Source: Lewinellaceae bacterium
Lineage (GTDB): Bacteria > Bacteroidota > Bacteroidia > Chitinophagales > Saprospiraceae
Reading direction: 5' to 3'
DNA length: 38,754 bases
Assembly (NCBI GenBank): GCA_029976695.1
Contig: JARQTN010000250.1
Location: 1 to 38,754 of the forward strand
A program made the translations under genes and the position numbers. The notes beneath the pieces are model-generated. The model made no database searches, was not told where the DNA came from, and saw nothing but the letters and a program-made list of their open reading frames with translations. Below, piece after piece: positions 3,720 through 33,564 of the stretch; positions within the stretch are counted from its first letter, which is position 1; each line of letters begins with the position of its first letter.

Positions 3720-6179
3720 ATGAAAAAGATCTACCTGCTGCTGATCCTTGCGATGTGCATGGGTTTCTCCGGAAATGCTTTTGCCCAGAGCAAAAAGAAA
3801 AAGAAAAATGAAGCTGCCGAAGCGTTGGCTGAAACCCCGAAGGAGGAGAAAAAGAAGAAAGAAAAAGAACCAAAAATCAAAAAATTCGAGGATATCGTAA
3901 ATGAAGGTGCCAGGACAGATGAAGGCCTCTTTACTGTCCACAAGGTCGATGACAAATTTTATTTTGAGATCCCTGATTCGATCCTCGATCGGGAGATCCT
4001 TATCGTCAGCAGAATCTCGGGACACGTCAAAGGACTCAACTTCGGCGGTGCAGGCATGAAGTCACGCCCACAGCAAGTCATCCGCTGGCAACGACATGAC
4101 GATAACCTGCTGCTCAGATCCGTCTCGTACAACAGCGTCGCCTCAGAAGATGATCCCGTATACAGGTCATTGCGCAACAATAATTTTGAACCTATCATCG
4201 AAAAATTCGAGATCAAGGCGTACAATAAGGATACTACTGGCGTCCTTATCGAAGTCAATTCGCTCTTTACAGAAGATGTGGAAATGATCGGTGCCTTGCG
4301 GCAAAGTGAACGCAAACGCTTTCAGATCAACGGCATGGACAAATCCAGGAACCTCATATCATGGATGAAAAGTTTTCCGGAGAATGTGGAAGTCCGCCAT
4401 GTACTCACCTACAAGGGGAAGGCACTCCCCGATAACCAGGCAACCGGGACACTCTCCATCGAAATGAACCAGTCTTTCATCCTGTTACCGGAAATCCCCT
4501 GGCATAAGAGACTTTATGATGCCCGTGTGGGTTATTTTTCCATCAGCCAAACGGATTATTCAGCTGATGAGCAAAAGGCTGCAAGCAGACGCTACATCAC
4601 GCGGTGGAAACTGGAACCGAAGGACTGGGATGCCTATGCACGGGGTGAACTCGTCGAACCTGTAAAGCCAATCGTCTACTATATCGACCCGGCCACCCCT
4701 GTAAAATGGCGGAAGTACATCATGCAGGGGGTCAATGACTGGCAGACGGCTTTTGAGGCAGCGGGCTTCAAAAATGCGATTATGGCAAAAGAAGCACCCA
4801 CCCCTGAAGAAGATCCCGACTGGAGCCCGGAAGATGTCCGTTACTCCGTTATCCGGTATATCACCACAGACATTCAGAACGCCCAGGGACCGCATGTGCA
4901 CGATCCGCGCACCGGTGAGATCCTGGAGTCTGATATCCTCTGGTACCATAATATCCTGAACCTGCTCAGGAACTGGTATTTTATCCAGACAGCTGCTGCA
5001 AACCCTGATGCAAGAGGTGTGAAGATCAAGGATGAAATCATGGGCCAACTCGTACGCTTTGTCGCAGCACATGAGGTCGGCCACACACTTGGATTGCCAC
5101 ACAACATGGGTTCCAGCAGCAATTATCCAGTGGATTCCCTCCGTTCACCATCATTCACCTCTACACATGGCACGGCGCCCTCGATCATGGATTATGCACG
5201 GTTCAACTATGTCGCCCAACCAGGAGACGGCGTGACCAGCTTTTATCCCGAGATCGGGAAATATGATGTCTGGTCGATCATGTACGGCTATAAACTCATT
5301 CCCGGCGTGACGGACCCGGAAGACGAACACAAGATCCTGCATGAATGGATCCTTGAACGTGCAGACGACCCGGAATACCGTTTTGGCCGACAGCGCGGCA
5401 ATCCATTGGATCCTTCCGCACAGACTGAAGACCTTGGGGATGACGGCATCTATGCAAGTGAATTAGGTATTGCCAACCTCAAACGGATCGTACCCGAACT
5501 GATCAGATGGACCGGGGAAGAAGGTGCGGATTTTGATGATCTAGAAGAGCTTTACGGCCAGGTTCTTGGTCAGTTGAGGCGCTATGCTGGCCATGTTGCA
5601 ACCATCGTAGGCGGGGTATATGAAACCTTCAGGACGTTCGACCAGGAGAAAGCTGTGTACACGCCCGTGCAGCGGGAATACCAGCAGGATGCAGTCCGGT
5701 TTCTCAATGCCCAGATTTTCAATACACCGGGTTGGTTGATCCGAAAAGACATTATTTCACGGATTGAATACGCAGGCACGATGGACAGGATCAGGGGACT
5801 GCAGGTGTCTACGCTCAACAGGCTTTTTGATGAAGACAGGCTGAACCGCCTGATGGAAGAAGAAGCGCTGTCCGGTGATCTGGCGTATACCCTTGGGAGC
5901 CTTTTTAACGATGTAGAGAATGGGATTTTCAGCGAATTGAAATCCGGCAATGAGATCGACCCCTTCAGGAGGAATCTGCAACGTGCATATGTGAGCAAAA
6001 TGAAGGAATTGATGGAACTCAAGGATGCCAAATACGACCAGAGCGATATCAAAGCATATGCTCGTGCTTCCCTTCTCTCTGTTAAGGAAAAGATTGGCAG
6101 CCGTGAAAATATCCATCTCACAGATCTGAAAGAACGGATCAATATGATTCTCGAACCAGTTCCGAGCAGTGCAAAATAA
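3720..6179 (+). CDS. Secreted zinc-dependent metalloprotease (DUF5117/DUF5118/DUF4953 type)
   Basis: The 819-residue protein begins with a Sec signal peptide (MKKIYLLLILAMCMG...NAFAQ), then a very Lys/Glu-rich stretch (residues 24-56) before the folded part. The zinc site is the extended metzincin-like motif HEVGHTLGLPHN, with His451, Glu452, His455 and His461. Layout and length match a family common in Bacteroidota, with DUF5118 and DUF5117 regions before the catalytic domain and a helical DUF4953-like C-terminal part. It probably hydrolyses peptides outside the inner membrane; the substrate is unknown. There is no T9SS sorting domain, so a periplasmic or outer-membrane location is likely. 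It is a single gene, closed by the terminator at 6210-6249. Confidence 0.88.
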   Translation: MKKIYLLLILAMCMGFSGNAFAQSKKKKKNEAAEALAETPKEEKKKKEKEPKIKKFEDIVNEGARTDEGLFTVHKVDDKFYFEIPDSILDREILIVSRISGHVKGLNFGGAGMKSRPQQVIRWQRHDDNLLLRSVSYNSVASEDDPVYRSLRNNNFEPIIEKFEIKAYNKDTTGVLIEVNSLFTEDVEMIGALRQSERKRFQINGMDKSRNLISWMKSFPENVEVRHVLTYKGKALPDNQATGTLSIEMNQSFILLPEIPWHKRLYDARVGYFSISQTDYSADEQKAASRRYITRWKLEPKDWDAYARGELVEPVKPIVYYIDPATPVKWRKYIMQGVNDWQTAFEAAGFKNAIMAKEAPTPEEDPDWSPEDVRYSVIRYITTDIQNAQGPHVHDPRTGEILESDILWYHNILNLLRNWYFIQTAAANPDARGVKIKDEIMGQLVRFVAAHEVGHTLGLPHNMGSSSNYPVDSLRSPSFTSTHGTAPSIMDYARFNYVAQPGDGVTSFYPEIGKYDVWSIMYGYKLIPGVTDPEDEHKILHEWILERADDPEYRFGRQRGNPLDPSAQTEDLGDDGIYASELGIANLKRIVPELIRWTGEEGADFDDLEELYGQVLGQLRRYAGHVATIVGGVYETFRTFDQEKAVYTPVQREYQQDAVRFLNAQIFNTPGWLIRKDIISRIEYAGTMDRIRGLQVSTLNRLFDEDRLNRLMEEEALSGDLAYTLGSLFNDVENGIFSELKSGNEIDPFRRNLQRAYVSKMKELMELKDAKYDQSDIKAYARASLLSVKEKIGSRENIHLTDLKERINMILEPVPSSAK

Positions 6180-16287: not shown

Positions 16288-19200
16288 CTACTCTACCATC
16301 AGTTTCTTGATTGCGACTTTGTCCTCACTTTTGACAGAAATAAGATACAAACCTGCATCCCATCCTGATACATCAATAGCCAGGTTTCCGGCAACAGAAC
16401 GCTCAATTATCTCAGTCTGGCCAACTCTCCGGCCAATCGCATCACATACTTCTATCGTCATATCTGTTCCCATTTCAAACGTCCATGAGATCCTTGCCAA
16501 TCCCCTTGCCGGATTTGGTGATACCGCAATCGCACGTGAAAACTCCAGATCTTCAATCCCGGTTGAGAAAGAAACTTCTATCCCGGAGGAGGTAAAGACA
16601 CATCCATTCGCATCTGTTACAATGACAGAATACACTCCAGGTTCCACAGCCTCAAGGTCCTCGCTGGTCTCCCCGTTGCTCCAGGTATAGGTGTACGGAG
16701 GCACTCCTCCGATCACTTCGATATCGATATTGCCATCATTTGCTGATGATGCAGAAGCATGCACGATTGAAATTGAGTTGATCTGTATGATCGGCGGTTC
16801 ATTGACCTGCAGATCTTCGCTTACAGCAACACATCCGTTTGCATCCGAAACGGTCACGGCATATGTTCCGGCAACAACATTTTCAATGCCCGGGTCCTGT
16901 GTCCCGGTGCTCCACATATAGGTATACGGGGTTGTACCGCCAGAAACATCAGTTGTAATGATACCGGATTCATCACCGAAGCAGAGGAGCTCAAACACAT
17001 TTGTTTCCACCACAACAGGAGAAGGTTCATCAATTACAAAATTGTCGATTTCGTACTGGCAACCATTGGCATCTGTCACCATGACCCCATATGTCCCGGG
17101 AGGTAATTGTTCGATCGTACCGGCTGTCGCACCATTCGTCCAGGCATAGCTGTACGGTGGAGTACCGCCACTTGTTTCCAGGGTGATCTGTCCATCCTGG
17201 TCGCCGAAACAAAGGATGTCCTGAACCACTGCATCGACTACAACCGGTTCAGGTTCCTCAATGACATAATTGACCATATCAACCTGGCAACCATTGGCAT
17301 CCGTCACCAAGACCCCATATGTTCCGGGAACCAATTGCGCAATTGCCTCGGATGTCGCACCATTTGTCCACAAATAGCTATACGGTGGGGTCCCGCCATT
17401 CGCCTCAACCGAGATCTGCCCGTCCTGCCCCCCGAAACAACCAACCATGATAAGCTCAGTGGCCTGGAGTTCAAGTGGCTGTGGTTCAAAGATCTCGATC
17501 GAATAGCTGACAGAATTTCCTTCCGAATCGGTGATCAGCACTTCATAAATACCAGCTGGAAGCCCGGAGATGTTTTGATCTGCACTTTCAAATCCATTCG
17601 GGCCTGACCATTGGTAAGTATATCCTCCCGTCCCGCCGACAACGTTGAGATCAACAGATCCGTCAGCACCTCCAAAACAGATATTATCTGTCGCGTTGTG
17701 ATTTACGAGAATTGCAGTCACATCTGCCTGTACGGTTACTTCCTGGCATACTGTTTCGGAAGCACAACCGTTCATTACTGTGAGGCAGACAGTGTATATC
17801 CCGTCTGCTGCATAGATATGTGCAGGGTTCTCTTCAACAGAAGAGTTGCCATCCCCGAAATCCCAGCTCCAGTTGTTCACATTACCTGTCGAGAGATCTT
17901 CAAAGAATGCGGACAATTCCGTCACCTGGAAATTGAAGGCCGGCACTACATCGACACTCTGGTCAATGACCAGGATGTTCTCCATCGTTGCACAACCGTT
18001 ATCAGGGTTTGAAAGTGAAAAGCTGTAGACGCCTCCCTGTGTGACAGTGATCTGGGTGACATCACTCGCAATGATATTTCCAGACTGGTCCATCCAGATC
18101 ATGACCAGGTCTGGTTGCGATGCATTGAAGGAAGCCTCTATCGTGACTTCACTATTGCTGCAATCCAGGTCCCCACTTGCTGAAAGATCAACGGCAGGAA
18201 TGTCCTGGTCAGAGATGACAAGGATTGAATTGTCAGCTGTACAGCCTGTGACCAAATCCGTGATCTCAACAAAATACTCACCGGGAGCATCAACCGAAAT
18301 CTCGCTGAGATCATTGAAAGTCAAAATGTTCCCCGAAGAAGTAGTCCAGTTGTATTCGATATCTCCGGTTTGCCCGTTCACCTGAGCTTCCAACTGGAGT
18401 ACAGGTTCTGTGCACGTCAGGATATTGTCTGAGATCACCTCAACTGTCGGGGCTTCAAGGTATTCAATTGTCGCGGTCAATGCTGTAGAACACCCGTTTT
18501 GATCTGCCAGGTCGATCGTATATGTTCCGGCCAGGAGGTTATCAACAAAATTATCCGTTGTCGTGAATGTACCGGAAGGACCATCAATGGTGGCAGTCAC
18601 AATGCCTGTTCCGCCAGACGTGAGAAATTCGATAACCCCGTTTACCTGGTTGCACGCTTCTGCAGAGACGCTCAGTAATGAAGCCTCAAGCAAGGGTGGC
18701 TCTGTCACCTCGTACACTTCCGAGTACTGACACCCGTTTGCATCTGTCAGATCCAGCGTGTAGGAGCCGGCAGGCAACTGTGCGATCTGACCCGTTCCGT
18801 TACCACTGAATCCAGGGTCATTTGAACTTGACCAGTCATATTGATACCCGGGTGTCCCGCCGGAAACGCTGACTTCGATTTGTCCGGAAGCATCGCCAAA
18901 GCAACCATTATTTTCAAGCAGGGTATTTGTGATCAGCACATCTTCGAGCGGCCCTCCGATGACAATATCCTCGAGCACACTCCGCTTTCCATTGCCTTCC
19001 GTGACAGTAACTGCATAGGTTCCACCACCCACACCCTGCAAGTCGGCATCGCTGGATCCGTTGCTCCATTGGTACTGTAGAGGGGTCAAACCTCCGGAGA
19101 CCGCAAGCGTGGCGGTCCCGTCACCGTAACAGATTGCTTCGGTCGTCGCATCCAGGCTTACATCCAGTGCGCAACTTTGAAGCCATGTCGCATGGGAAGC

Positions 19201-19695
19201 TGTCGTTACCTGGCCAGATTCATATACGGTGTAATCGGAAGGACAGATGGTAAAGATCGTCGGATAGTAACCGATCTGGTATGCATTGCTCACCGCACCT
19301 GACTGAAGGTCAATGATCGGGTACGGTGTTCCGTCTATCCAGTTCCCCTGGGAACTTCCCGTGTTGCCCAACAGATCATCCATATTCGTTGACAGATCCG
19401 CTTCGATGAAGAATACCATAAACTGGTCCGTTCCGTTTGGGCCATATTGGTTATACAGGTTCTCAAGTGCACCGCTGTTATGATAGCTCCAGCAAGGGCT
19501 GCACCACGTCGCCGAGAAATCAAGTACCACGACTTTACCCTGTGCAAGATAGTCGTACAGGTGGTGTGTATTGCCATTGATGTCGGTGAGCGTAAAATCG
19601 GGGGCAATTGAACCATCCGGTATCTGCCCATTGGAATGTAAAAAAGAGAGCAGCATCACTGCACTCGTCAGTAGTAGAGTTTTGAATCGCATCAT
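16288..19695 (-). CDS. T9SS-exported thioredoxin/SprB-repeat/PKD protein
   Basis: About 1135 residues. A signal peptide (MMRFKTLLLTSAVMLL...) is followed by a TlpA/AhpC-like thioredoxin domain (residues about 25-190) with an intact WCSPC redox motif (Cys65, Cys68). Then come about ten modules of 55-80 residues. Most are SprB-type repeats (pattern CFGDxDG...GGTPPYSYxWTNG...GTYxVxVTDANGC), some divergent or Ig-like, and one is a PKD domain (WSWDFGDGNSS). The last 80 residues, starting at VSPNPARG and ending KKLMVE, are a type A T9SS sorting domain, so it should be released or attached at the cell surface. SprB repeats are known from gliding adhesins. I set the start at the first of two adjacent Met codons before the signal; the ORF runs 13 codons further upstream. 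It has no close operon partner. Confidence 0.88.
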   Translation of the reverse strand: MMRFKTLLLTSAVMLLSFLHSNGQIPDGSIAPDFTLTDINGNTHHLYDYLAQGKVVVLDFSATWCSPCWSYHNSGALENLYNQYGPNGTDQFMVFFIEADLSTNMDDLLGNTGSSQGNWIDGTPYPIIDLQSGAVSNAYQIGYYPTIFTICPSDYTVYESGQVTTASHATWLQSCALDVSLDATTEAICYGDGTATLAVSGGLTPLQYQWSNGSSDADLQGVGGGTYAVTVTEGNGKRSVLEDIVIGGPLEDVLITNTLLENNGCFGDASGQIEVSVSGGTPGYQYDWSSSNDPGFSGNGTGQIAQLPAGSYTLDLTDANGCQYSEVYEVTEPPLLEASLLSVSAEACNQVNGVIEFLTSGGTGIVTATIDGPSGTFTTTDNFVDNLLAGTYTIDLADQNGCSTALTATIEYLEAPTVEVISDNILTCTEPVLQLEAQVNGQTGDIEYNWTTSSGNILTFNDLSEISVDAPGEYFVEITDLVTGCTADNSILVISDQDIPAVDLSASGDLDCSNSEVTIEASFNASQPDLVMIWMDQSGNIIASDVTQITVTQGGVYSFSLSNPDNGCATMENILVIDQSVDVVPAFNFQVTELSAFFEDLSTGNVNNWSWDFGDGNSSVEENPAHIYAADGIYTVCLTVMNGCASETVCQEVTVQADVTAILVNHNATDNICFGGADGSVDLNVVGGTGGYTYQWSGPNGFESADQNISGLPAGIYEVLITDSEGNSVSYSIEIFEPQPLELQATELIMVGCFGGQDGQISVEANGGTPPYSYLWTNGATSEAIAQLVPGTYGVLVTDANGCQVDMVNYVIEEPEPVVVDAVVQDILCFGDQDGQITLETSGGTPPYSYAWTNGATAGTIEQLPPGTYGVMVTDANGCQYEIDNFVIDEPSPVVVETNVFELLCFGDESGIITTDVSGGTTPYTYMWSTGTQDPGIENVVAGTYAVTVSDANGCVAVSEDLQVNEPPIIQINSISIVHASASSANDGNIDIEVIGGVPPYTYTWSNGETSEDLEAVEPGVYSVIVTDANGCVFTSSGIEVSFSTGIEDLEFSRAIAVSPNPARGLARISWTFEMGTDMTIEVCDAIGRRVGQTEIIERSVAGNLAIDVSGWDAGLYLISVKSEDKVAIKKLMVE
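17056..17329. repeat. Near-identical DNA repeat inside adjacent SprB modules
   Basis: 46-bp segments at 17056-17101 and 17284-17329 match at 43 of 46 positions, 228 bp (76 codons) apart. They encode the same part of neighbouring SprB repeats and point to recent duplication or gene conversion within the gene. Confidence 0.8.
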
Positions 19696-19902
19696 TTGAA
19701 AATTAGACCAACTAATCGCGACGAATTTAAACATATAATTATTGATATTTCAAAAAATGCAATTGAAACTTCAATGGAAGGCTTGTATCGATGGAATCAT
19801 GTCTCATATGGAAGAAAAAGCTATTAATTCAGCGGGATTATTCACCTTTGCGCCGCAACCAAAAAGGGTCAGTTTTGTTTGCACACAGGTAAATCTTGGA
19901 AA

Positions 19903-22464: not shown

Positions 22465-23316
22465 TTACTGGAGTTTTGCTTTCCTGGCCATCCATTCATT
22501 ATATGATCCGTCAAACACTTTTACATTGCGGAATCCGAGAATATTCCGAAAAGCGACAAAAGCGGCGCATGCCCGGATACCTTCAATACAGTAAAAAGCA
22601 ATTTCCATGTCCCTTTCCAGGCCATGTGCATCCGCAATAGCCTGCAGCTCCTGGGCCGATTTGAAAGCCCCGTTAGAATCCATCAAATCCTTGTAGTTGA
22701 TATGGATGGCACCCGGTATATGCCCTGTACTTTTTTCATTTCCTTCATATTCGGCTTTTGTCCGAACATCTACGAGTGCAAAATCATCAGCACCAAGCCT
22801 TTGATCAATTTCTTCCATGGAAATATAGATTGAAGGCATGACTCCTGGTGTCATGTGCCCCTCTTTGACTTCAGCCACTTCGGAAGTCATCGGCACACCA
22901 TCAATCTGCCACAATGCATTATCCTTGTGCAGGATCTTCACATCGCTTTTGGCAATATATTTCAGGATCCAGTAAACGCGGCTTGCATACTTCTGAGAGC
23001 CCTCGTCATACACGACTACGGTGGCATCCTTGTCGATTCCATGGGCCGCAAAAATATCCGCTAAATCGACCCATGACTTGATCACGCCATAGACGTCTCC
23101 ATTTTCATAAAGGTCTTCATGGTTCAGGTACACGGCCCCTTCAATGTGGCTGGCTAGATAATTACTTTCCGTGAGGCTGGCATCGATGATGACGAGCTTT
23201 TCATCGGATTCCATCATCTGGACCAGTTGTTCAGGTGTGATGACATCAAGTTGCGCTTGCATGGCATTAAAGGAAACAAGCGCCAGGAAGAATGCAAAGA
23301 ATTTAAAATTTCTCAT
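22465..23316 (-). CDS. Exported tandem-rhodanese sulfurtransferase, active loop CIEGIR
   Basis: This is a TST/MST-type enzyme that moves sulfane sulfur, here outside the inner membrane, since residues 1-21 are a signal peptide (MRNFKFFAFFLALVSF..). The N-terminal rhodanese domain (25-140) has Asp104 where a catalytic Cys would be (VVVYDEGSQKYASR), as usual for the structural half of this family. The C-terminal domain (160-283) carries Cys243 in FYCIEGIRAC, with another Cys at 250. It is a paralogue of the gene at 30529-31377 (shared YDEGSQKY, RVYWILKYI, AFVAFR, NVKVFDG) but its active loop is acidic, not basic. It lies 164 nt after the Cys-tailed lipoprotein genes, so it may have its own promoter. 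Confidence 0.88.
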   Translation of the reverse strand: MRNFKFFAFFLALVSFNAMQAQLDVITPEQLVQMMESDEKLVIIDASLTESNYLASHIEGAVYLNHEDLYENGDVYGVIKSWVDLADIFAAHGIDKDATVVVYDEGSQKYASRVYWILKYIAKSDVKILHKDNALWQIDGVPMTSEVAEVKEGHMTPGVMPSIYISMEEIDQRLGADDFALVDVRTKAEYEGNEKSTGHIPGAIHINYKDLMDSNGAFKSAQELQAIADAHGLERDMEIAFYCIEGIRACAAFVAFRNILGFRNVKVFDGSYNEWMARKAKLQ

Positions 23317-23480: not shown

Positions 23481-24080
23481 TCAGCAACCCTCTTCCTCTT
23501 CGACAACGGGTTTTTTCTTCTGAACCTGCACCGTTTTCTTGGGGACGGGCGGAGGCGGTGGTGGTGGAGGTGGCTTGAATGTCAATCGCTCCCTGGCACC
23601 GGAAAAAACAGCCCCATAGTCGATGGAGGGATCCATCGAAACATCCATGAGCATTCCAACCGAAGGGTCAAAAGTACCCTGGACGATCCTGACATCAGGG
23701 ACATCATTCCATTTCAATACAAACCAGGCATCAATTGATGTTTGAAGTTGATCACTGTATACCAGGTATGTTGCTCTTCCATGGTTGGGAAGTTTCCCTT
23801 GCCTCAGTTTCCCGATCTGTGCTGCAGGGATGTTTACCGCACCTGGTTCGTGCACACTGGCAAAGGCAGTTGCATCCCTGACATCCAGAAAAACAACACC
23901 GGAGGTATCCTGATCATAGAGCGCATAAGCCTGCTCAACTGGAATGAGGACCTCCCCTCCCAGGTATTCTCCAAGGATGGCCTCCATGTCAACCTGGCGG
24001 TGGCTCTGGGTATACTGGCAAGAGAATGCCAATAAGGCGATTACAAAAAATATCAGTGCTCTAACAACCTTCTTCTTCAT
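23481..24080 (-). CDS. Lipoprotein with a Cys-less rhodanese domain and C-terminal EEEEGC tail
   Basis: From the Met at 24080 (199 residues) there is a lipoprotein signal with lipid Cys21 (ALLAFSC) and no surface-export signal after it, so it probably faces the periplasm. Residues about 45-140 are a rhodanese domain (VVFLDVRDATAF, HEPGAVNIP). The active-site position reads YSDQLQTS (residues 108-115), with no cysteine. After the domain come nine prolines (170-178), then PKKTVQVQKKK and the terminus EEEEGC, so the only other Cys is the last residue. The start lies inside the upstream gene: the 20 nt that encode DEEEGC-stop there encode MKKKVV here in another frame. A longer start at 24107 is possible but hides the signal peptide. 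I infer a carrier of sulfane sulfur on the terminal Cys. Confidence 0.8.
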   Translation of the reverse strand: MKKKVVRALIFFVIALLAFSCQYTQSHRQVDMEAILGEYLGGEVLIPVEQAYALYDQDTSGVVFLDVRDATAFASVHEPGAVNIPAAQIGKLRQGKLPNHGRATYLVYSDQLQTSIDAWFVLKWNDVPDVRIVQGTFDPSVGMLMDVSMDPSIDYGAVFSGARERLTFKPPPPPPPPPVPKKTVQVQKKKPVVEEEEGC

Positions 24081-24672
24081 CTTGCTGGATTTTCTTTTTT
24101 GGTGCAACCTTGACTGTTTTCTTCCGGACCGGTGCCGGTTGTGTGTAGGGTTCCGGTGTTATCGGCTTGCTCAACCCCACAAAGTACATTGCTGCCGCCT
24201 CGCGAAATTGCTGTTGATGCAATGCGGCATCATCCAGGACGACATCCTTGTCCGGTTCCGTAAAGATGGTCCGGACAAAACCCTCGATGCCTCCATCGAG
24301 GATAAACGGATCGCATATCCCATTTCCCTGAAGATAAGCTGAAGCGAATCGTGCGTCAATGCCCTTATCATCTGCCAGGACAACACCCTGTTTTCCCCTG
24401 AACATTTTTTCAATCTCCATTTTCCGGTCGGGCCATGTCTCCAGTGGCATGTTGACAGACCCCGGCAGAGAGAATGACTGAAAGGCCTTTTCTGACCTGA
24501 TGTCCACCAGGATCAGGGATGGATCTTCATTGATCATTTGATCTGCAAGATCATCCGGTGACAGGTACGCAATGTAATGGTTCAGTGGCTGTTGCTCCTG
24601 GCCGTTTTGCATCCCACAACCCGCTATCAGCACGATCATCACCCAGATTCCAATAATTGCTTTCATTTTCAC
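24061..24672 (-). CDS. Lipoprotein with a Cys-less rhodanese domain and C-terminal EEEGC tail
   Basis: 203 residues. The lipoprotein signal ends in LIAGC (lipid Cys19) and the next residues (GMQNG) carry no surface-export signal. The rhodanese domain (about 35-135) has SLILVDIRSEKAF and SLPGSVNMP, but the active loop reads VLADDKGIDAR (98-108) with Asp instead of Cys. A helix and a Pro-rich linker lead to VRKKTVKVAPKKK and the terminus DEEEGC (Cys203). Another Cys is at 120. The tail is nearly the same as in the next gene although the rest is diverged, so the tail is the conserved functional part. It starts 10 nt after the NrfD-like gene, in the same operon as the molybdoenzyme. Confidence 0.82.
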   Translation of the reverse strand: MKMKAIIGIWVMIVLIAGCGMQNGQEQQPLNHYIAYLSPDDLADQMINEDPSLILVDIRSEKAFQSFSLPGSVNMPLETWPDRKMEIEKMFRGKQGVVLADDKGIDARFASAYLQGNGICDPFILDGGIEGFVRTIFTEPDKDVVLDDAALHQQQFREAAAMYFVGLSKPITPEPYTQPAPVRKKTVKVAPKKKIQQDEEEGC

Positions 24673-24682
24673 TTTTTCTGAA

Positions 24683-25624
24683 TTAGTAAATATAGCCTGT
24701 CATTTCACCTCCCTCGACGATCAGATACCGCAACAGGAATCCACCTGCGAGGATCAGGATAGCAGGCAAGGCTGCGGGGATCTTTCGTCCGCGAAGCTTT
24801 GCAATTTCCAGCACCATCGGCAGGAGCAGCCCAAGAAAAACCACGCCCCCCCAGAAAGGAAATGCAAATTCTCCATTCAGGAAGAGGTCTGCTGCAGCAA
24901 GCTGAACTTCAGGACCTGCCAGAAAGCCCATGAAAAGATGCGTGATCAGGAAGAGCTCGATTGCGATAAGGAGCAGGTCGATCCGGCCAAACAAATGAGA
25001 TTCATGGACGCTTTTTGACATCCACATGATTACCGCGGCACCCGTAGAGAGACCGGAAACGAGGAAAAGCGGCCCCAGGATTGCGGTATTCCACAATGGC
25101 CTGGCATTGAATGCCGACAGGAGAATGCCGGTATAGATCCCCAACAATGCGGAAAGGATGATCATGATCCAGGCAATTTTGCGTCTTTGCCTGATGATCC
25201 AGGCTTCGAATTTTTCAAGAACCGGCAGGCGCCAGCTCCAGCCTGGCAGCAACTCTTTCAGGTAACTGGCTGCCCAAAGGAATGACAATGGTGTAATCCC
25301 CATCAAAACCCAGGCCCCCCATGACATGGGAGATTCAATCCTGAAGGTCACATACAGCCTCCAGAAATTCCATTGGTTCTTCAGGTCGATAAAAAGAGCA
25401 AACAACCCGATCACAAGCAGGAATGGCACCAGGAATGTGGACCATTTCACGGCCGTGGGAAGCTCATGGTCCCGCCGCATAATGGTGTAGAGGGATGCAA
25501 AAAACATAATCCCGGCTGCCAGTCCACCCAGAAACAGGTAGACCGGAATCGGCCAGTGCCAAATATCAAGTGTCGGATCAATATGCGGAATGTTTCTTCC
25601 CGAGGTGATGATTTCTTCTTCCAT
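24683..25624 (-). CDS. nrfD: NrfD/PsrC-type quinone-reactive membrane subunit
   Basis: 313 residues with about eight or nine hydrophobic helices. The opening DIWHWPIPVYLFLGGLAAG is typical of PsrC/NrfD subunits, which exchange electrons between the quinone pool and the iron-sulfur subunit of CISM complexes. The length matches PsrC. It lies 5 nt after the ferredoxin subunit gene and 10 nt before the lipoprotein gene, so it is the third gene of a five-gene operon. It anchors the molybdoenzyme to the outer face of the inner membrane. Confidence 0.9.
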   Translation of the reverse strand: MEEEIITSGRNIPHIDPTLDIWHWPIPVYLFLGGLAAGIMFFASLYTIMRRDHELPTAVKWSTFLVPFLLVIGLFALFIDLKNQWNFWRLYVTFRIESPMSWGAWVLMGITPLSFLWAASYLKELLPGWSWRLPVLEKFEAWIIRQRRKIAWIMIILSALLGIYTGILLSAFNARPLWNTAILGPLFLVSGLSTGAAVIMWMSKSVHESHLFGRIDLLLIAIELFLITHLFMGFLAGPEVQLAAADLFLNGEFAFPFWGGVVFLGLLLPMVLEIAKLRGRKIPAALPAILILAGGFLLRYLIVEGGEMTGYIY

Positions 25625-25629
25625 GTTGC

Positions 25630-26163
25630 TTAGATTAAATAGTATACATGCGGTTTTGTACCGGCTTCCGGAGACAGTACTTTAAACTTCCTGGTACGCA
25701 GCTGTTTTGAAATTTCACTTGATGGATCATCCAGGTCCCCAAAGTACATGCATTTCGTTGGGCAAACGGCCACGCAAGCCGGTTGTTTTCCTTCCCGCAC
25801 CCGGTGAATGCAGAAAGTGCATTTGTCCACATGGCCTTCGGGATGGGAATACCGGGCATCGTAGGGACAGGATTCGATACAAGCCCCGCAGCCGATACAT
25901 TTGGCTGCTTCCACCAGTACCACGCCTCCTTCAGCAATGTAACTTGCACCCGTCGGGCAACAGCGCACACAGGGGGCGTTTTCGCAGTGGTTGCAGCGTT
26001 CCGACCTGATTTCCATCTCAAGTTTCGGATAGGTGCCTACAGTTTTCTCGGTGATCCAGTCCCGGCAATATCCATGTGGCACATCATTTTCTATTTGGCA
26101 TGCGACGACACAGTCAGCGCACCCCACGCATTTTTTTGTATCGATCGCCATTGCATATCTCAT
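25630..26163 (-). CDS. Four-cluster ferredoxin subunit of the molybdoenzyme (PsrB/PhsB-like)
   Basis: 177 residues with sixteen cysteines in four [4Fe-4S] patterns: CVGCADCVVAC (Cys12, 15, 18, 22), CNHCENAPCVRCCP, CIGCGACIESCP and CTFC...CVAVCP. This is the electron-transfer subunit linking the catalytic subunit with the NrfD-like anchor. There is no Tat signal, so it is carried out with the catalytic subunit. It lies 11 nt after that gene. All cluster ligands appear intact. Confidence 0.93.
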   Translation of the reverse strand: MRYAMAIDTKKCVGCADCVVACQIENDVPHGYCRDWITEKTVGTYPKLEMEIRSERCNHCENAPCVRCCPTGASYIAEGGVVLVEAAKCIGCGACIESCPYDARYSHPEGHVDKCTFCIHRVREGKQPACVAVCPTKCMYFGDLDDPSSEISKQLRTRKFKVLSPEAGTKPHVYYLI

Positions 26164-26174
26164 AACTCTTCGAT

Positions 26175-28388
26175 TTAGCTGATTTGTTCTTTGATGAATG
26201 TCACAAAATTGCCCCGCATGCCAGTGCCGCCCATGATCGGGTCATCCATGACATTGGTGATCATTTGCGTGTCACTGACACCCTTGCCGTATGCTTGTGT
26301 CAGTTTTTTCGTCACATGGCCAAATCCATGCACCATGTATACCGAGTCCCACCGGATCCGCTCAGTGATCCGGACTTTGATGGGGAGGTCCGAAACGATC
26401 CCGTCCTGGTTTTTCAGCCAGACCTCCTGGCCATTTTCCAAAGACCACTTGCTGGCTACCTTTGGATGCACCCAGACGAAGTTTTCATCCATCAGGTCCG
26501 CGAGGTACGGGTTGTTTGATGTGCGGCTGAAGGTATGCATCGGTGCGCGTCCGTAGTTCAGTCGATAAAACCCTTCCGGGGGTGTCGGGTGAGCGGTATA
26601 ATTTGGTATCGGATCAAACCCGGCCTCTTTCAGTTGCGCTGAGTACAGCTCCACCTTTCCACTCGGCGTATTGAACCAGGGAACCTCATTGTCCGGCTGG
26701 TAGAGCGGGCCTGACTTGCGCGGGAACTTCTTGATCCCCAGCTTTTTCATTTCATCCAGCGAGCTGCCCAGCTGCTCGAGCTGCCATTCCAGCACTTCAG
26801 TAAAATCAGCATACTGGAAATAGTCCTCCAGGCCGAGTCGTTTTCCCAGCTCTTTTGTCATCCACCATGCGGGTTTTGTTTCCCCTAACGGTTCCGCAGC
26901 AGGCATGCGCAAAGCGATATATGGCTCACGGTGCGGGGAAGTACGCAACTCATCATATCTCTCCAGGTAGGTACATTCGGGTAAAATGACATCTGCATAC
27001 CCTGTTATTTCCATTGGCATCGTATCCACCACAACAATGAATTTTGCTTTTTGGGCTGCCTCCTCAAACCGGCCCACATCCGGTATCGTATAAGGCAGGT
27101 TTGTGCCGGCGACGATCCATCCATGAATGGCATATGGCGATTCTTCATCGATCGTCGCATCCAGGAATGTGTTGGCAATGGAAAGGGCAGCAAACGGGTA
27201 TTTCCCGTCCAGGATCTCACGCCAACCCCATTTGGGTTTTGGATATGGTGGATGTGGAAAATCAGGCACTTTCACTTTTTCGGGAAAATAGAAACCTCCC
27301 CTCCTGCCCCAATTTCCAAGAAGGGCATTCAGAATGGCAATCGCCCGGGACCGCTGTGTATCATCACCATACCAGGTCACATGTCGTCCCGGGTGGATAA
27401 TCGCCGCCGGAGAAGCGGCCGCCATCAGCCTGGCCGTCTTGCGGATCAGGTCAGGCTTGATGGTCGTAATCCCGTATGCCCACTCCGGTGTCATTTGCCT
27501 GACATGGTGGGCCAGCTGGTCAAAACCAATCGTATTTTTTTGTACAAAGTCAACATCATACAACTTCTCCTCGATCAGGACATTGATCCATGCGAGGAGC
27601 AGGGCAATATCGGTTGCCGGCTTGATCGGCAGCCAGTACTTTGACTTTCCTGCCGCAATGGAATAGCGCGGATCAACGGTGATGATATCGCCGCCCTTGT
27701 CGATCATGTCCGCCATTTCCTGCACCTGGCCATTGTGCATATTCTCACCGAGGTGCGAGCCGATCAGGACCAGGCACTTTGTATCCCGGATGTCGAGTGG
27801 CTCGGGAGAACCCATCACTTGTCCGAATGTCAGTTTGAACCCGACTTCACGGGGTCCGCGGCATTGCGCGTAGGACGGTGCCGAAGCGTTGACAGAACCC
27901 ATGGCCTTTAGCAAATGGGAGAAATGATGGCCGGCAGAACCGTGATTAAACAAGGCGATGGACTCCGGGCCATATGTTGCAGATAACTCCTGCAACCGCT
28001 TTGCCACGAGGTCCAGGGCTTCATCCCAGGAAGCTTTTCTGAATGTTTGCTTGCCATCCTCCTCGACACGAATGAGTGGTGTCATCAGCCTGTCCGGATC
28101 TTCGTACATCCCTAATCCGCCTGTCCCCCTTGGACACAAACGACCATTGCAATGTGGGTCGTCGTCATGACCGATGATTTTTTGAATGCGCCCCTCCGCG
28201 TCCACATGGGACCAGGCAGCGCATTTCCAAAAGCATACCTCGCAATAGGTCGGGTAACGTTTCATTTCTGAAACAACCGGGTTGTCAAATAAGGATTTAC
28301 CGAATAAACCGGGAATTGTCCGTGAACCCAGGGTGATCCCTCCGATCCCTAAAGCGGAGATCCTGATAAAATCCCTGCGCGACTGCAT
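26175..28388 (-). CDS. Tat-exported molybdopterin oxidoreductase (polysulfide/thiosulfate reductase-like catalytic subunit)
   Basis: 737 residues. A twin-arginine signal (SRRDFIRIS) sends it to the periplasm. The N-terminal [4Fe-4S] ligands are Cys49, Cys52, Cys56 and Cys85 (CEVCFWKC ... CPRG). Cys176 in SYAQCRGP is the best candidate for the molybdenum ligand, as in PsrA/PhsA-type enzymes. The molybdopterin-binding domain is complete to the C-terminus. The family includes polysulfide, thiosulfate, tetrathionate and arsenate enzymes; the rhodanese neighbours favour a sulfur substrate. Sequence alone does not show whether it reduces or oxidises. It is the first gene of the operon with the ferredoxin, NrfD-like and two Cys-tailed lipoprotein genes. 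TAAAGTTG at 28417-28424 (minus) is a one-mismatch -7 element. Confidence 0.88.
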   Translation of the reverse strand: MQSRRDFIRISALGIGGITLGSRTIPGLFGKSLFDNPVVSEMKRYPTYCEVCFWKCAAWSHVDAEGRIQKIIGHDDDPHCNGRLCPRGTGGLGMYEDPDRLMTPLIRVEEDGKQTFRKASWDEALDLVAKRLQELSATYGPESIALFNHGSAGHHFSHLLKAMGSVNASAPSYAQCRGPREVGFKLTFGQVMGSPEPLDIRDTKCLVLIGSHLGENMHNGQVQEMADMIDKGGDIITVDPRYSIAAGKSKYWLPIKPATDIALLLAWINVLIEEKLYDVDFVQKNTIGFDQLAHHVRQMTPEWAYGITTIKPDLIRKTARLMAAASPAAIIHPGRHVTWYGDDTQRSRAIAILNALLGNWGRRGGFYFPEKVKVPDFPHPPYPKPKWGWREILDGKYPFAALSIANTFLDATIDEESPYAIHGWIVAGTNLPYTIPDVGRFEEAAQKAKFIVVVDTMPMEITGYADVILPECTYLERYDELRTSPHREPYIALRMPAAEPLGETKPAWWMTKELGKRLGLEDYFQYADFTEVLEWQLEQLGSSLDEMKKLGIKKFPRKSGPLYQPDNEVPWFNTPSGKVELYSAQLKEAGFDPIPNYTAHPTPPEGFYRLNYGRAPMHTFSRTSNNPYLADLMDENFVWVHPKVASKWSLENGQEVWLKNQDGIVSDLPIKVRITERIRWDSVYMVHGFGHVTKKLTQAYGKGVSDTQMITNVMDDPIMGGTGMRGNFVTFIKEQIS

Positions 28389-28544: not shown

Positions 28545-30479
28545 ATGGATCTCAACCGTAAAAAAGCAGGGGGATCAACCTCTCAAATGTGGCGAATAAA
28601 ACTGGGCATGATATCCATGATGATCCTGGTCTATGCGCTCGGTTGCTTACAAAATGATGATGCCGTTCAGAATGAACCTGCTCACAGAGCGCTCCCCGAA
28701 CTCCTGGGAACCGATGAAACATGTGTCAAGTGCCATGGAAATGTGTCCGGATTCGCACCCGGACACCTCCCGGGAGCAATCGGATGCGCTTCATGCCACC
28801 TGGGTGATCCGAAGGCTGAATCGAAAGAGGAAGCACATAAATCCATGGTCCTGATACCAGGCAACCTCGAGAATGCCTCAGCTACCTGCGGCAATGCTTC
28901 CTGCCATCCGGATATTGTGGACCGGGTGTCAAAGTCGCTGATGACCACGATGGCCGGCGTGGTATCCACAAACCGCCATGTTTTCGATCCCGGGGCTCCT
29001 TCCCTCTCCAACCCGCATATTGAAACGATACGGGATGATCATCCGGCCGACACACACTTGCGGCAACTCTGTGCTTCCTGCCACCTGGGCAGGGAAAAAA
29101 CATCCTTCGGACCCATTGATGAAACCTCCCGGGGAGGAGGGTGCACCGCATGCCACCTGAATTACGCAGACACAGCACTCACAGACCTGAAAGCGTATGT
29201 GGCAGGCGACAAAGAAGGGAAACTCCTGTATACACACCCCGGCCTGACCGTTGAAGTAACCAATGATCATTGCTTTGGTTGCCACAGCCGCTCAGGGAGG
29301 ATTTCCACCAGCTATGAGGGGTGGCATGAAACAACACTCCATGAACTCACCGGACTGACGGACAGTACTTTCAGGGAATTGCAGGATGGGAGGATCTTTC
29401 AAAAATATGCTGCCGATATCCACCATGAACGTGGACTCGAATGCATCGATTGCCATCTTGTCACAGAATTGATGGGGGACGGAAATACATATCGCCACAA
29501 GTCTGAAGCGCTGAAAGTGCAATGTGCGGATTGTCACTTTTCCGGATCCAAAGAGACGATCCCATTCGATGCCCTCAGCGACGAAGAAAAAAAGATCCTG
29601 AATATCCGGGGGAAAGAACCTGGTGCATACCTCCCGGCAGGGAGATCCGGCGAGGCACTGCTCAATTCGTCCGTGTTGCCTGATGGGAGGGCTCTCCTTT
29701 TTGGAAAGAACAGCAGGGACACATTTGAGTTGAGGCCTCCTGCAGATGTATGCCAGAAAGATGCTGTACACTCAAGGCTGACCTGTGAATCCTGCCATAC
29801 CGGTTGGGCCCCGCAATGCCTGGGCTGTCATACCAGCTATGATCCGCTGATCACGGGATATGACCTCCTTGACCAGAAAAAAGTGACCGGAAAATGGAAT
29901 GAATCCATCGGCGTATTTCTTGCTGAGGCTCCTCCCCTTGGGATTGTGATGGAAAAACATGAAGGGATGGAAGTGGAAAAGATCAAGACTTTTATCGCAG
30001 GCATGATCATGACCATAGACCCGTCCGGGTTCCCGGGACACGGTGAGGACACCACCATGTTCAGGCGTCTTTTTGCACCGGTTTCCGCGCATACCACCCA
30101 GGCAGGCGGAAGATCATGCGCATCCTGCCATCTTGACCCGCTTGCACTTGGCTACGGCAGGGGGACCCTGGAATACCAAACGGAAAGCGGGCAGGGAAAA
30201 TGGGTCTTCGAATCGGAATATGTGGCAAACGATCAAGACGGGCTGCCCGAGGACGCCTGGATACCTTTTCTGGGTACCCGCGAAGGGATGACAAGTTCGA
30301 GATCTGTAGCCCGTCCGTTCACAGTTGAAGAACAACAGCGAATCCTGCTTGTCGGTGCATGCCTGACCTGTCATGAGGAAAAAAGTACTGTCATGGAAAG
30401 CAGCCTGGAGGGTTTTGAGGGGGTTTTGGAGAGGAGGAGTTCAGTGTGTATCCTGCCCGGATCCTATAAAAAGAGATAA
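28545..30479 (+). CDS. Exported multihaem cytochrome c (11 CxxCH plus one CX4CH), probable lipoprotein
   Basis: 644 residues. A hydrophobic segment ends in VYALGC (Cys34), a weak lipobox. Haem-attachment motifs begin at Cys60, 81, 176, 200, 243, 300, 327, 414, 425, 525 and 606 (all CxxCH). CGNASCH at 115-121 is a CX4CH site of the kind known in some cytochromes c3. Many other His residues could serve as distal ligands. A region from 335 to 400 has no haem site. It is divergent from the molybdoenzyme operon and ends next to a rhodanese gene, so it probably carries electrons to or from the sulfur enzyme or has its own sulfur-compound activity. A later start at Met15 (28587) would give a more usual signal peptide. 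Confidence 0.85.
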   Translation: MDLNRKKAGGSTSQMWRIKLGMISMMILVYALGCLQNDDAVQNEPAHRALPELLGTDETCVKCHGNVSGFAPGHLPGAIGCASCHLGDPKAESKEEAHKSMVLIPGNLENASATCGNASCHPDIVDRVSKSLMTTMAGVVSTNRHVFDPGAPSLSNPHIETIRDDHPADTHLRQLCASCHLGREKTSFGPIDETSRGGGCTACHLNYADTALTDLKAYVAGDKEGKLLYTHPGLTVEVTNDHCFGCHSRSGRISTSYEGWHETTLHELTGLTDSTFRELQDGRIFQKYAADIHHERGLECIDCHLVTELMGDGNTYRHKSEALKVQCADCHFSGSKETIPFDALSDEEKKILNIRGKEPGAYLPAGRSGEALLNSSVLPDGRALLFGKNSRDTFELRPPADVCQKDAVHSRLTCESCHTGWAPQCLGCHTSYDPLITGYDLLDQKKVTGKWNESIGVFLAEAPPLGIVMEKHEGMEVEKIKTFIAGMIMTIDPSGFPGHGEDTTMFRRLFAPVSAHTTQAGGRSCASCHLDPLALGYGRGTLEYQTESGQGKWVFESEYVANDQDGLPEDAWIPFLGTREGMTSSRSVARPFTVEEQQRILLVGACLTCHEEKSTVMESSLEGFEGVLERRSSVCILPGSYKKR

Positions 30480-30528: not shown

Positions 30529-31377
30529 TTATTGTACGACTGAATGATTGGCAACCCATTCATTGTAGGCACCGTCAAACACTTTTACATTGGTGTACCC
30601 GAGGATATCCCTGAATGCAACAAATGCCACTGTGGCACGGACACTTGTCTTGCAGTAAAAGATAATCCCCTTGTCATTTGTCAGGCCATTTTCCTGGGCA
30701 ATCTTTTCAAGTTCTGCTTTGGATTTGAATGCCCCGGTATCAGTAAGCAAGTCCTCATAGTTCAGGTTGATGGCACCAGGAATATGTCCTTCACTGCTTT
30801 TCACACCGCTGTATTCATCAGCAGTGCGGACATCTACCAGCGCATAATCCTGCAAATCCTTTTTGGACATCACTTCGTCAAGGGAAGCAAAGACTTCCTC
30901 ATTGACCTTCGGTGTGAAAACCGCTGATTTGGGCTTCGGCACTTCTGCTGTCAGCATAATCCGGGCAGGCCTCCATGTTGCCAGGTCCTTATGGAGAATG
31001 TATACATTATCCTTTCCGATGTATTTCAGGATCCAGTAGACCCGTGAGGAATACTTCTGGGATCCTTCGTCATAGACCACAACTTTATTGTCATCACCCA
31101 CGCCCATGCTTCCAAAAATTTCGGCAAGCTCGGCCGGTGGTTTGATGAGGCCTTTCACATCACCATCCCTGTACAGGCTGTTGTGGTCAACATGCACAGC
31201 CCCTTTTACATGATTTGTTGAATAAGTGCTTGCTTTGCTCGCGTCGAGGATCACCATGTCCTTGTCGCTCTTCATCATCGCCGAAAAATCCTTCGGTGTG
31301 ATCAGGTCCATCTGGGCGGCTAATCCGCCGATCAGGAAGAAAGCAAAAAGAAATGAGAAATATTGCTTGATTTTCAT
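30529..31377 (-). CDS. Exported tandem-rhodanese sulfurtransferase, active loop CKTSVR
   Basis: From the Met at 31377 (282 residues), residues 1-22 are a signal peptide (MKIKQYFSFLFAFFLIGGLA). The ORF extends 17 codons upstream, but that would bury the signal and overlap the porin gene. The N-terminal rhodanese half is inactive (Asp103 in VVVYDEGSQKYSSR). The C-terminal half has Cys242 in FYCKTSVRA. The basic loop resembles thiosulfate-type rhodaneses (CRKGVT) more than mercaptopyruvate-type ones (CGSGVT). It is a paralogue of the 22465-23316 gene. It follows the porin gene by 13 nt, last in a three-gene operon. It probably passes sulfane sulfur within the periplasm, as Sud does in Wolinella. 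Confidence 0.88.
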   Translation of the reverse strand: MKIKQYFSFLFAFFLIGGLAAQMDLITPKDFSAMMKSDKDMVILDASKASTYSTNHVKGAVHVDHNSLYRDGDVKGLIKPPAELAEIFGSMGVGDDNKVVVYDEGSQKYSSRVYWILKYIGKDNVYILHKDLATWRPARIMLTAEVPKPKSAVFTPKVNEEVFASLDEVMSKKDLQDYALVDVRTADEYSGVKSSEGHIPGAINLNYEDLLTDTGAFKSKAELEKIAQENGLTNDKGIIFYCKTSVRATVAFVAFRDILGYTNVKVFDGAYNEWVANHSVVQ

Positions 31378-31390
31378 GATTCTAAAAATT

Positions 31391-32503
31391 TTAAAAAACA
31401 ACCTGGAATTGCACGAGCAGTGCGTCATTGTCCTCTTCCACCGTCCAGTCTTCCTCGGCCCGGTACAGGTAATTGATCTGCACCCTCGTCCATTCGTTAA
31501 AGAAATAGTTCACACCATACGTGATGGTATTGTGGATTGCGACATCGCTGTTGAATTCAAGTTCACCAGAAGCCATATTCAGGTCAGGATCAAATGTTTC
31601 AAATTTGATCACCGGCTGGATATTCCACTTGGTCTTGTACATGGCTTGCACCATGAAGCCGTTCTTTGACTTGCTTCCGTTTACAATGGTGGGTTCCTCG
31701 CCGCAGCCGCCGCCGACCGTGTATGACCCCTTGTCCTGTCCCTGGATGAATTCACCCTGTACCAGGAAGTCTTTGTACTTGAGTTCGAGATCCACGCCAA
31801 AACGACTGCGTTCATCCTGTTGTTCTGCGGATTCACTCAGCGGTTTGTGCAGTCCATGGCGATAGCTTGCCCCGACCGTGATGAAATCAAACGGATGTAC
31901 GGTGATTCTCCCAACGATGTCTTTAGCCTTGTTGTCATCCAGCCTGTTCATTCCGGTACCATTCATGATCGCAATGTTGTACCCGAAGAAGTTCTCCACT
32001 TCGCTGCCGAAGATTTTCAGCTTGCCCGTCGTACCCGAGAACATGATCCCGATGTCACGAAAAGGACCTGCGAGGTTACCCACAACTTCCGACCGGTCAA
32101 TCGTATGCAGCTTGTGGCATGGTGTGGATAGCTCAAGTCCGAAAGGAGATTTGAATTGCCCCACACTTGCTTTGAAATACGGTGCAAAACGGTTGTAGCT
32201 GACAAATACATCGAGAAGAGCAGGCCCGCCAAGTGTGGGGCTGAATTCAAACAATGCATAGTAGGAAAAATCGTAAGGGATATTTCCCATGACACCGAGC
32301 CGCGCGCGGTTAAAGTAAAAGCTGGTCTGATCCAGCGATTCTCCATAGAGATCATTGCCCAGGAATGAATATTCAGCCTGTGGCTGGATATAGCCGATCA
32401 CCTGAACACCATCTTCCGAGGTCGATTCCATGCATCCCTGTCCTTGTAGCATAAACGGGAACATAAGAAGAGAAAGCGCAATTAATAACATCTGCTTTTT
32501 CAT
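31391..32503 (-). CDS. OprP/OprO-like outer-membrane porin
   Basis: 370 residues with a signal peptide (MKKQMLLIALSLLMFPFML..) and a beta-barrel pattern ending in Phe (LLVQFQVVF). FYFNRARLGVMGNI, YYALFEF and ASVGQFKSPFGLE are typical of the phosphate-selective porin O/P family. Such channels favour anions. Lying between two rhodanese genes (gaps of 13 and 47 nt), it may admit thiosulfate or polysulfide rather than phosphate. That is inference from position. Confidence 0.82.
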   Translation of the reverse strand: MKKQMLLIALSLLMFPFMLQGQGCMESTSEDGVQVIGYIQPQAEYSFLGNDLYGESLDQTSFYFNRARLGVMGNIPYDFSYYALFEFSPTLGGPALLDVFVSYNRFAPYFKASVGQFKSPFGLELSTPCHKLHTIDRSEVVGNLAGPFRDIGIMFSGTTGKLKIFGSEVENFFGYNIAIMNGTGMNRLDDNKAKDIVGRITVHPFDFITVGASYRHGLHKPLSESAEQQDERSRFGVDLELKYKDFLVQGEFIQGQDKGSYTVGGGCGEEPTIVNGSKSKNGFMVQAMYKTKWNIQPVIKFETFDPDLNMASGELEFNSDVAIHNTITYGVNYFFNEWTRVQINYLYRAEEDWTVEEDNDALLVQFQVVF

Positions 32504-32550: not shown

Positions 32551-33564
32551 TTATTCACCAGGGGCGTAGAAGTTTCCTTCTGAATCCCAGTAACCAAAAT
32601 TCATCTCACTTGCAGAACCTGCACCTTTCCATGATTTACCAGCAGCGCTTCCGTTTTGCAGTTGTGTATGTACAATACCGTTTGCACCAAAGAGCAAGCT
32701 TTTCGTATCATATCCAAGGACATCAAACCACATGTTGGAGATTGCTGAAGTCTGTCCAGTATAGCAGTAGTTTACGATCGTTGCATCCGGGTTGAAGTAT
32801 TTTAGCCCACCGAGCGAGATCTGCTCATCGAGGCGGTATGCATCTTTCACGTGGCCATAAGCGCTCCATGAACTTTCACTCCATTTGTTATTGACGAAGT
32901 AGTTACTTGAATTGTCGAGCAACGCATCTTTCTTGATGCCCCAGTCTGTCTTGGTAAGCATATACTCGACACGTGCGCGTAGAATGTCTGCCCCATCCGA
33001 AAAACCGGTCCGGATTTCGGGAGCCTCAAAATTACCATTTGGCAATGGATCACCGCTTGTCACCCAGTTCGTGTGCGTATAATCCCCGGCATTGGCATTC
33101 CATTTGCCGGCGAAGTTGCTGTTCCAGCCACTCATCCCCCATTTCAGGCTTTGGGCATTGTAGCCAACAAGACGAAGTGCACCAACCGCACGACCTGCCG
33201 TCTGGCCTGTATAGCAAACAACCAGGATGGGATCGCCATTCGCCTGTTCGGCAGTTGTCAGGATATTACCTAATGTCGTATTTACAGCATTTTTGATGTG
33301 TCCTGCATTAAAATCCTCTTGTGAACGGATATCAATAACAAAGTAATCAGCAACGGAATAGTCGTTTTCATCCACTGTCAGTTTACTTCCAGGCACGACC
33401 CAGCCGGAAAGGTAATCCCCAAAGTCAAGGTTATTCTGGGCCATATAGGAAACCAGTGTGTCAAACTCGGATACTTGCGGGCCTACTGCATCATCCTTAC
33501 AGCTTGAAAAAATAAATAACGTCCCGATTGAAAGGATCGCAAAAAATTGAAAGAACTTTTTCAT
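32551..33564 (-). CDS. Surface lipoprotein with two CYTGQT rhodanese domains
   Basis: 337 residues. The lipoprotein signal ends FIFSSC (Cys22) and the next residues are KDD, matching the Lys-acidic-acidic form of the Bacteroidota surface lipoprotein export signal. Two rhodanese domains follow, each with a Cys: VVCYTGQTAGRA (Cys117) and NYCYTGQTSAIS (Cys267). Both halves keep the same active loop, unlike the TST-type neighbours whose first half is dead. The region between the domains is rich in Trp, Asn and Gly. The TGQT loop differs from the classical CRKGVT and CGSGVT loops. It is the first gene of an operon with the porin and the CKTSVR rhodanese, and probably handles sulfane sulfur at the cell surface. 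Confidence 0.85.
   Translation of the reverse strand: MKKFFQFFAILSIGTLFIFSSCKDDAVGPQVSEFDTLVSYMAQNNLDFGDYLSGWVVPGSKLTVDENDYSVADYFVIDIRSQEDFNAGHIKNAVNTTLGNILTTAEQANGDPILVVCYTGQTAGRAVGALRLVGYNAQSLKWGMSGWNSNFAGKWNANAGDYTHTNWVTSGDPLPNGNFEAPEIRTGFSDGADILRARVEYMLTKTDWGIKKDALLDNSSNYFVNNKWSESSWSAYGHVKDAYRLDEQISLGGLKYFNPDATIVNYCYTGQTSAISNMWFDVLGYDTKSLLFGANGIVHTQLQNGSAAGKSWKGAGSASEMNFGYWDSEGNFYAPGE

Follow-up and report, generated by a model that had tools for sequence, protein, structure and literature searches.

The window analysed here is a stretch of 38,754 nucleotides (contig JARQTN010000250.1, positions 1 to 38,754) from the draft genome of a Lewinellaceae bacterium (G000; 4.12 Mb in 263 contigs, 97% complete). 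On its minus strand, it holds an operon with the order MoA, 4Fe-4S subunit, NrfD subunit, A, B, and two-domain rhodanese, where A and B are the two proteins under study:

26175..28388, minus strand: molybdopterin oxidoreductase (MoA), with an RRDF twin-arginine-like start
25630..26163, minus strand: 4Fe-4S electron-transfer subunit of the PsrB/PhsB type (Pfam, NCBIfam)
24683..25624, minus strand: NrfD/PsrC-like membrane subunit (Pfam NrfD, 1.4e-49)
24061..24672, minus strand: protein A, GTG start, 203 aa, ending RKKTVKVAPKKKIQQDEEEGC; lipoprotein with a Cys-less rhodanese domain, a Pro/Lys linker and the tail KKTVKVAPKKKIQQDEEEGC (ORF, Pfam, AlphaFold2 model)
24274..24558, minus strand: rhodanese domain of A, residues 39-133 (Pfam)
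24064..24174, minus strand: C-terminal arm of A, about residues 166-203, terminal Cys codon at 24064-24066
23481..24080, minus strand: protein B, ATG start, 199 aa, ending PKKTVQVQKKKPVVEEEEGC; lipoprotein with a Cys-less rhodanese domain, a polyproline linker and the tail KKTVQVQKKKPVVEEEEGC (ORF, Pfam, AlphaFold2 model)
23670..23912, minus strand: rhodanese domain of B, residues 57-137 (Pfam)
23484..23582, minus strand: C-terminal arm of B, residues 167-199, terminal Cys codon at 23484-23486
22465..23316, minus strand: rhodanese of two domains, the second of which has a Cys in its active loop (FYCIEGIRA); without a Cys tail

By its Molybdopterin, Fer4, and NrfD subunits (Pfam), the operon encodes an enzyme of the Psr/Phs type (MoABC). 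The top NCBIfam match of MoA is the thiosulfate reductase PhsA (NF012032), with 479 bits, which is below the equivalog cut-off of 694. The listed ORF of protein B begins at an upstream TTG (24107), and the ATG start was taken instead. The two-domain rhodanese that closes the operon is a possible sulfur donor.

Proteins A and B are known to Pfam and NCBIfam merely as weak rhodanese matches. Rhodanese (PF00581) is found in A with 46.5 bits (E 5.2e-12) and in B with 28.2 bits (E 2.7e-06), the cut-off being 22.2, and at E ≤ 0.1 Pfam yields no other family, including SoxY and DsrC. As the initial annotation had pointed out, and as the sequence confirms, the active loops (ADDKG in A and YSDQLQ in B) contain no cysteine, so that neither protein ranks as a rhodanese sulfurtransferase enzyme. 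The tails also read as described there, with a proline-rich linker, a KKTV-x-V stretch, a Lys triplet, and a DEEEGC (A) or EEEEGC (B) end where Cys is the last residue, and they are indeed more alike than the proteins as a whole, with eight of the final 12 residues identical versus 42 of 185 (23%) over the entire alignment. In the 4.12 Mb draft genome, EEEGC followed by a stop is found at two sites only, those of A and B, which speaks against a chance match. The codons of the DEEEGC end of A and those of the first residues of B (MKKKVV), read in different frames, have 20 bases in common (24061-24080). A search of plasmid records with B returned no match.

In the AlphaFold2 models of A and B, the folded part is rhodanese-like, with Foldseek matches largely to rhodanese-domain structures, and the arms start past the last helix and hold no secondary structure. 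Their pLDDT of about 60-80 is moderate, as expected for flexible parts.

For comparison with other genomes, the MoA proteins of three genomes were aligned and used as the query, and the best 80 of at least 565 matches in a one-genome-per-species collection were taken, which biases this named set towards close relatives. Together with L034 and the window, and leaving out L033 (which repeats L110), these make up 82 loci. The record titles of the 80 are nearly all from Bacteroidota, the others being a few MAGs labelled as Chlorobiota or Gracilibacteria in their titles, and named strains belong to Lutibacter, Winogradskyella, Yeosuana, Maribellus, Carboxylicivirga, Marinifilum, and Flavivirga. Protein A is present in all 73 loci that remain after setting aside nine where the contig stops within 2.2 kb of MoA. 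Wherever the genes were read, MoA is followed by the Fe-S and NrfD subunits, two successive YeeE halves, A, and usually B. The distance from MoA to A is sufficient for two YeeE halves in 69 of the 73 loci and insufficient in the other four.

Within this set of the best 80 of 565 matches plus two, a (G/E)GC stretch lies near the C-terminus of every A homologue (73/73), mostly with nothing beyond the cysteine, which is the last residue in 70 and the last but one in three. Among the 64 B proteins found in the same set, one (L086) leaves its contig, and Cys is the last or last but one residue in 61 of the 63 complete ones; the B proteins of L048 and L079 are truncated, with the tail absent in every frame. 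The contig of L094 stops before B, and eight loci (L064, L066, L096, L102, L104, L109, L111, and L117) have no B-like match despite having room for it, while their A keeps a GGC or GGCS end. Only 13 of 1058 other ORFs of at least 150 codons in these loci end in Cys, ten of which are rhodaneses ending in GGC.

The catalytic column of the rhodanese domain is occupied in A (n = 73) by 68 Ser, two Ala, one Asp, and two Cys, and in B (n = 61) by 47 Gly, seven Ala, four Ser, two Asp, and one Cys. The cysteine has thus been replaced in 71/73 A and 60/61 B, and is kept in L084, L090, and L083. Conservation was measured on alignments from which near-copies and L034 had been excluded. Residues P51, D57, R59, G128, G202, and C203 are invariant in 66 A proteins (mean column identity of 34%), and D66, R68, G198, and C199 in 55 B proteins (30%), so that, besides the terminal Gly-Cys, the D and R of the rhodanese core are the only residues invariant in both sets. 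Taken together, these counts of catalytic columns and termini make the loss of the pocket cysteine and the presence of the terminal one near-universal in the A/B subfamily. The description of A and B as lipoproteins fits the window, where lipobox-like stretches (LIAGC and LAFSC) are recognised by eye, but does not extend to most relatives: a simple pattern detects a lipobox in 2/73 A and 3/61 B, and most of these proteins seem, as judged by eye, to be anchored by a hydrophobic stretch at the N-terminus. Through such a signal or anchor, A and B should face the periplasm.

A Gly-Gly-Cys end is not exclusive to the proteins that lost the pocket cysteine. In the set of the best 80 of 565 molybdoenzyme loci plus two, the ten GGC-ended rhodaneses mentioned above hold a cysteine in the active loop, so the idea that the arm is found only where the active Cys was lost has to be discarded. 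Six of them are single-domain rhodaneses with a YC(K/R)KGKR loop, which adjoin a cytochrome b-like gene:

L046, 4525-5079
L052, 1316-1870
L055, 3071-3667
L059, 3432-3959
L071, 1208-1795
L075, 4117-4647

Those in L046, L055, L059, and L075 are located downstream of a gene with eight CXXCH motifs as well as of the cytochrome b-like gene. The initial interpretation is supported in part: the proposal that the arm cysteine carries sulfur in place of the rhodanese one fits the comparative tests, but these ten proteins argue against viewing the arm simply as a replacement for that residue.

A profile of A was also run (E ≤ 1e-12) on 296 genomes across Bacteroidota that were not selected for a molybdoenzyme, giving 56 matches in 52 genomes. 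The 50 further proteins considered below, some of which are near-copies, do not include the window (L126), L138 (the same place as L177, and counted as L177), L170 (a frameshifted copy whose tail is visible in another frame), and L172-L175 (generic rhodaneses where both the YeeE match and the tail are absent). Each of the 50 either shares its frame with a YeeE half or has one with the same orientation within the fetched stretch, and all 50 bear a cysteine within the last three residues, which is the final one in 45. The end is Gly-Cys in 48, the other two ending in FQC and GGLCS, and the catalytic-column Cys is absent in 48 and kept in L142 and L145. The tail is not an artefact of the search profile, as a profile trimmed before the tail recovers 50/50 within the fetched loci.

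In 24 of these 50 proteins, the YeeE half, the rhodanese, and the arm follow each other in a single open frame, and the three fusions inspected with Pfam (L179, which is the L152 gene, L066, and L129) each contain Sulf_transp and Rhodanese domains. The split YeeE halves of these operons match Sulf_transp (PF04143) too, with GC.SG in 121/121 matches and C[PS]GT in 120/120. The fusions of L179, L180, and L182 are preceded by two genes, one encoding eight CXXCH motifs and the other cytochrome b-like; in L179, the former is an octaheme cytochrome of the tetrathionate reductase family (TIGR04315, 568.8 bits, cut-off 375) and the latter a cytochrome b561. L181 shows the MoABC arrangement with a single arm protein, and in L066 the fusion (4136-5335, minus strand; YeeE half and Cys-less rhodanese in one frame, ending in KKVKGGCS) shares the locus with a separate MoABC operon that has its own armed A. 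The arm is not found on every rhodanese next to YeeE, for L178, a locus fetched separately and outside the 56 profile matches, combines YeeE-like matches with active, tail-less rhodaneses. The initial annotation had proposed the dead rhodanese domain as a possible docking module for the molybdoenzyme or other rhodaneses; MoABC does lie beside A and B, but this choice of partners proved too narrow, because the split YeeE/YedE, often in one frame with the arm protein, is the constant neighbour in the phylum-wide set and an octaheme enzyme can take the place of the molybdoenzyme. The location of armed Cys-less rhodaneses beside sulfur-respiration and sulfur-uptake genes in many Bacteroidota points to a novel type of arm for carrying sulfur.

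The window belongs, with L039, L045, and L110, to one clade (SH-aLRT 99) where the gap between NrfD and A has no room for YeeE and the tails of both A and B end in EEEGC. The EEEE stretch is confined to these four loci on A, and to the same clade and L116 on B, the B of L116 ending in EEEEGC despite a longer spacing. This distribution excludes EEEE as part of the motif, which, to judge from the sequences compared, is (G/E)GC-COOH. The Cys end is far more general than stated in the initial annotation, whereas EEEEGC followed by a stop, which a sample of 395 Bacteroidota genomes contains solely in that of the window, is a local spelling. Since the Glu-rich tail and the missing operon YeeE share a single clade, they count as one event rather than as a statistical association, and the most general partner is missing precisely in the clade of the window, whose genome has its YeeE/YedE matches on a different contig. 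An adjustment of the Glu tails to the loss of YeeE, based on this one event, is a lead.

The tails of A and B resemble each other within each genome. Over 61 A-B pairs, the nine residues preceding the last three agree at 6.92 of nine positions within a genome versus 3.14 between genomes, a value that none of 20,000 permutations reached (p ≤ 5e-5, in a test that takes no account of relatedness), while the domain identity of A and B is 27% within and 24% between genomes. The tail of A is closer to that of its own B than to that of the A from the nearest genome with less than 70% domain identity in 47 of the 61 cases, farther in five, and tied in nine. Gene conversion has been mostly rejected as the origin of this match, at least as a recent event, because 305 of the 604 shared tail residues are encoded by differing codons; codon agreement is slightly above that of shuffles (299 versus 274, sd 7.6). 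Selection at the protein level, fitting both tails to one shared partner, would be the simplest reading of this co-variation.

Several known systems offer parallels. The sequence matches include the structure 1qxn, 'sulfide dehydrogenase' (E 7.6e-05), which we take to be Sud of Wolinella, a rhodanese feeding polysulfide reductase. Like A and B, Sud is tied to a Psr-type enzyme; it works, however, through the Cys in its rhodanese loop, whereas A and B lack this Cys and have a Cys-tipped arm. DsrC is also a sulfur carrier with a C-terminal Cys arm, but it is cytoplasmic and has a fold other than the rhodanese one, and A and B have no DsrC match in Pfam. There is also a likeness to SoxY, where the cysteine of a GGCGG end is described as binding the sulfur substrate (PMC6067878). 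Both cases involve periplasmic sulfur chemistry and a C-terminal cysteine flanked by glycine (PMC6067878), and the gene slot of the armed rhodaneses resembles that of the divergent SoxY genes reported for lucinid symbionts, which lie near YeeE/D and dsrAB, with dmsAB farther upstream, and also adjoin otr, encoding an octaheme tetrathionate reductase (PMC11237559). Contrary to SoxY, A and B have a rhodanese fold and no SoxY match, the cysteine is usually the final residue and is borne by both proteins, and they are membrane-tethered or fused to a YeeE half.

On the transporter side, the operon YeeE halves match Sulf_transp and keep the Cys motifs, as do YedE1E2/PmpAB and SoxT/TsuA. The transport of zero-valent sulfur is ascribed to YedE1E2 (PMC10812762), and for the YeeE-like SoxT, a passage of sulfur from the SoxY Cys along its own cysteines is called conceivable in a paper that also states that sulfane sulfur reaches the cytoplasm 'by unknown means' (PMC11582611). 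The known YeeE partner, YeeD, is presented as a TusA-like protein on the cytoplasmic side (PMC11073785), unlike the partner found here, which is an arm-bearing rhodanese that probably faces the periplasm. In view of the parallels with SoxY, SoxT, and YedE1E2, and of the SoxY slot in lucinid symbionts, A and B are taken as sulfane-sulfur carriers with the mode of action of SoxY, although they are not SoxY proteins. Arm-bearing sulfur carriers are already known, and what appears new is a terminal-Cys arm on a Cys-less rhodanese, a combination absent from the titles and abstract openings listed by full-text searches of the open-access literature (which leaves most subscription papers outside).

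With a probability of about 0.7, A and B are membrane-tethered, periplasmic, SoxY-like carriers of sulfane sulfur built on a rhodanese fold, with PhsA/Psr-like or octaheme enzymes and, in most cases, YeeE as their partners. According to this model, the active-site loop would have lost its sulfur-binding cysteine, and the cysteine at the tip of the flexible arm, (G/E)GC-COOH, would carry the sulfur instead, holding it as a persulfide or S-thiosulfonate in the manner of the GGCGG arm of SoxY. By swinging, the arm would connect the redox enzyme with further rhodaneses of the periplasm and with the outer opening of YeeE; in the clade of the window, which has no operon YeeE, its partners would be the molybdoenzyme and the adjacent active rhodaneses. 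A wider proposal, to which we give somewhat better than even odds, is that these proteins form a phylum-wide class of carriers where the rhodanese cysteine has been relocated from the pocket to the end of a swinging arm. As the equivalent of SoxY in Bacteroidota, such carriers would pass sulfane sulfur between periplasmic respiration enzymes and the YeeE1E2 import channel, would sometimes be fused to the latter, and would have paired arms that co-evolve to fit one docking site.

The terminal cysteine could instead bridge proteins or bind a metal. A disulfide between the ends of A and B, or between either of them and a partner, acting as a tether or redox latch, would agree with tandem genes that have matching tails and a cysteine at the equivalent place, but is quite unlikely, as A keeps its end in the eight loci that lack B, and the YeeE fusions, which have no need of a tether to YeeE, bear one arm per chain. 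The co-variation of the tails within genomes, as though to fit one partner, together with the coincidence of the acidic EEEE tail and the absence of the operon YeeE in one clade, would also be expected if the tail were mainly a docking peptide for a shared partner, its cysteine being structural or a metal ligand and sulfur being bound elsewhere. Candidate sites for such binding exist in A, as one to three further cysteines are present in the body of 48/73 proteins, and in 18/61 B, but the other 43 B have none, and Gly-Cys is invariant even though the charged part of the tail shifts from Lys-rich to Glu-rich, which makes the docking peptide unlikely as the main function.

Finally, the ends of these proteins may be likened to those of thiocarboxylate carriers, which end in GG, and the occurrence of GGC, GGCG, GGCS, GGCA, GGCT, and GGLCS ends could point to a C-terminal processing signal that is trimmed or activated in a similar way. 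This explanation is very improbable: many tails end in EGC, RMGC, or FQC, with no GG, and A and B are probably periplasmic, a compartment for which we know of no ATP-driven activation.

If the SoxY-like carrier model is correct, a Cys-tipped arm fused to a YeeE half would directly answer how sulfane sulfur is presented at the outer face of the transporter, the solution of SoxY would have evolved twice, the second time on an unrelated fold, and a Cys-less rhodanese with a (G/E)GC end would serve as a marker of sulfur metabolism in Bacteroidota.

Other genes of the window deserve mention. Two further rhodanese proteins flank a porin O/P gene on the minus strand (30529-31428, 31391-32503, and 32551-33564), which brings the rhodanese proteins around one molybdoenzyme, including A, B, and the product of 22465-23316, to at least five. 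A cytochrome c is encoded on the plus strand (28545-30479), with ExtM of the selenite/tellurite reduction operon as its top NCBIfam match (232.7 bits, cut-off 800), and an ExtM-like gene (250.2 bits) is also located upstream of the MoABC operon in L181. Farther away, on the minus strand, 16288-19734 encodes a large protein that combines SprB repeats, a redoxin domain, and a Por secretion tail.
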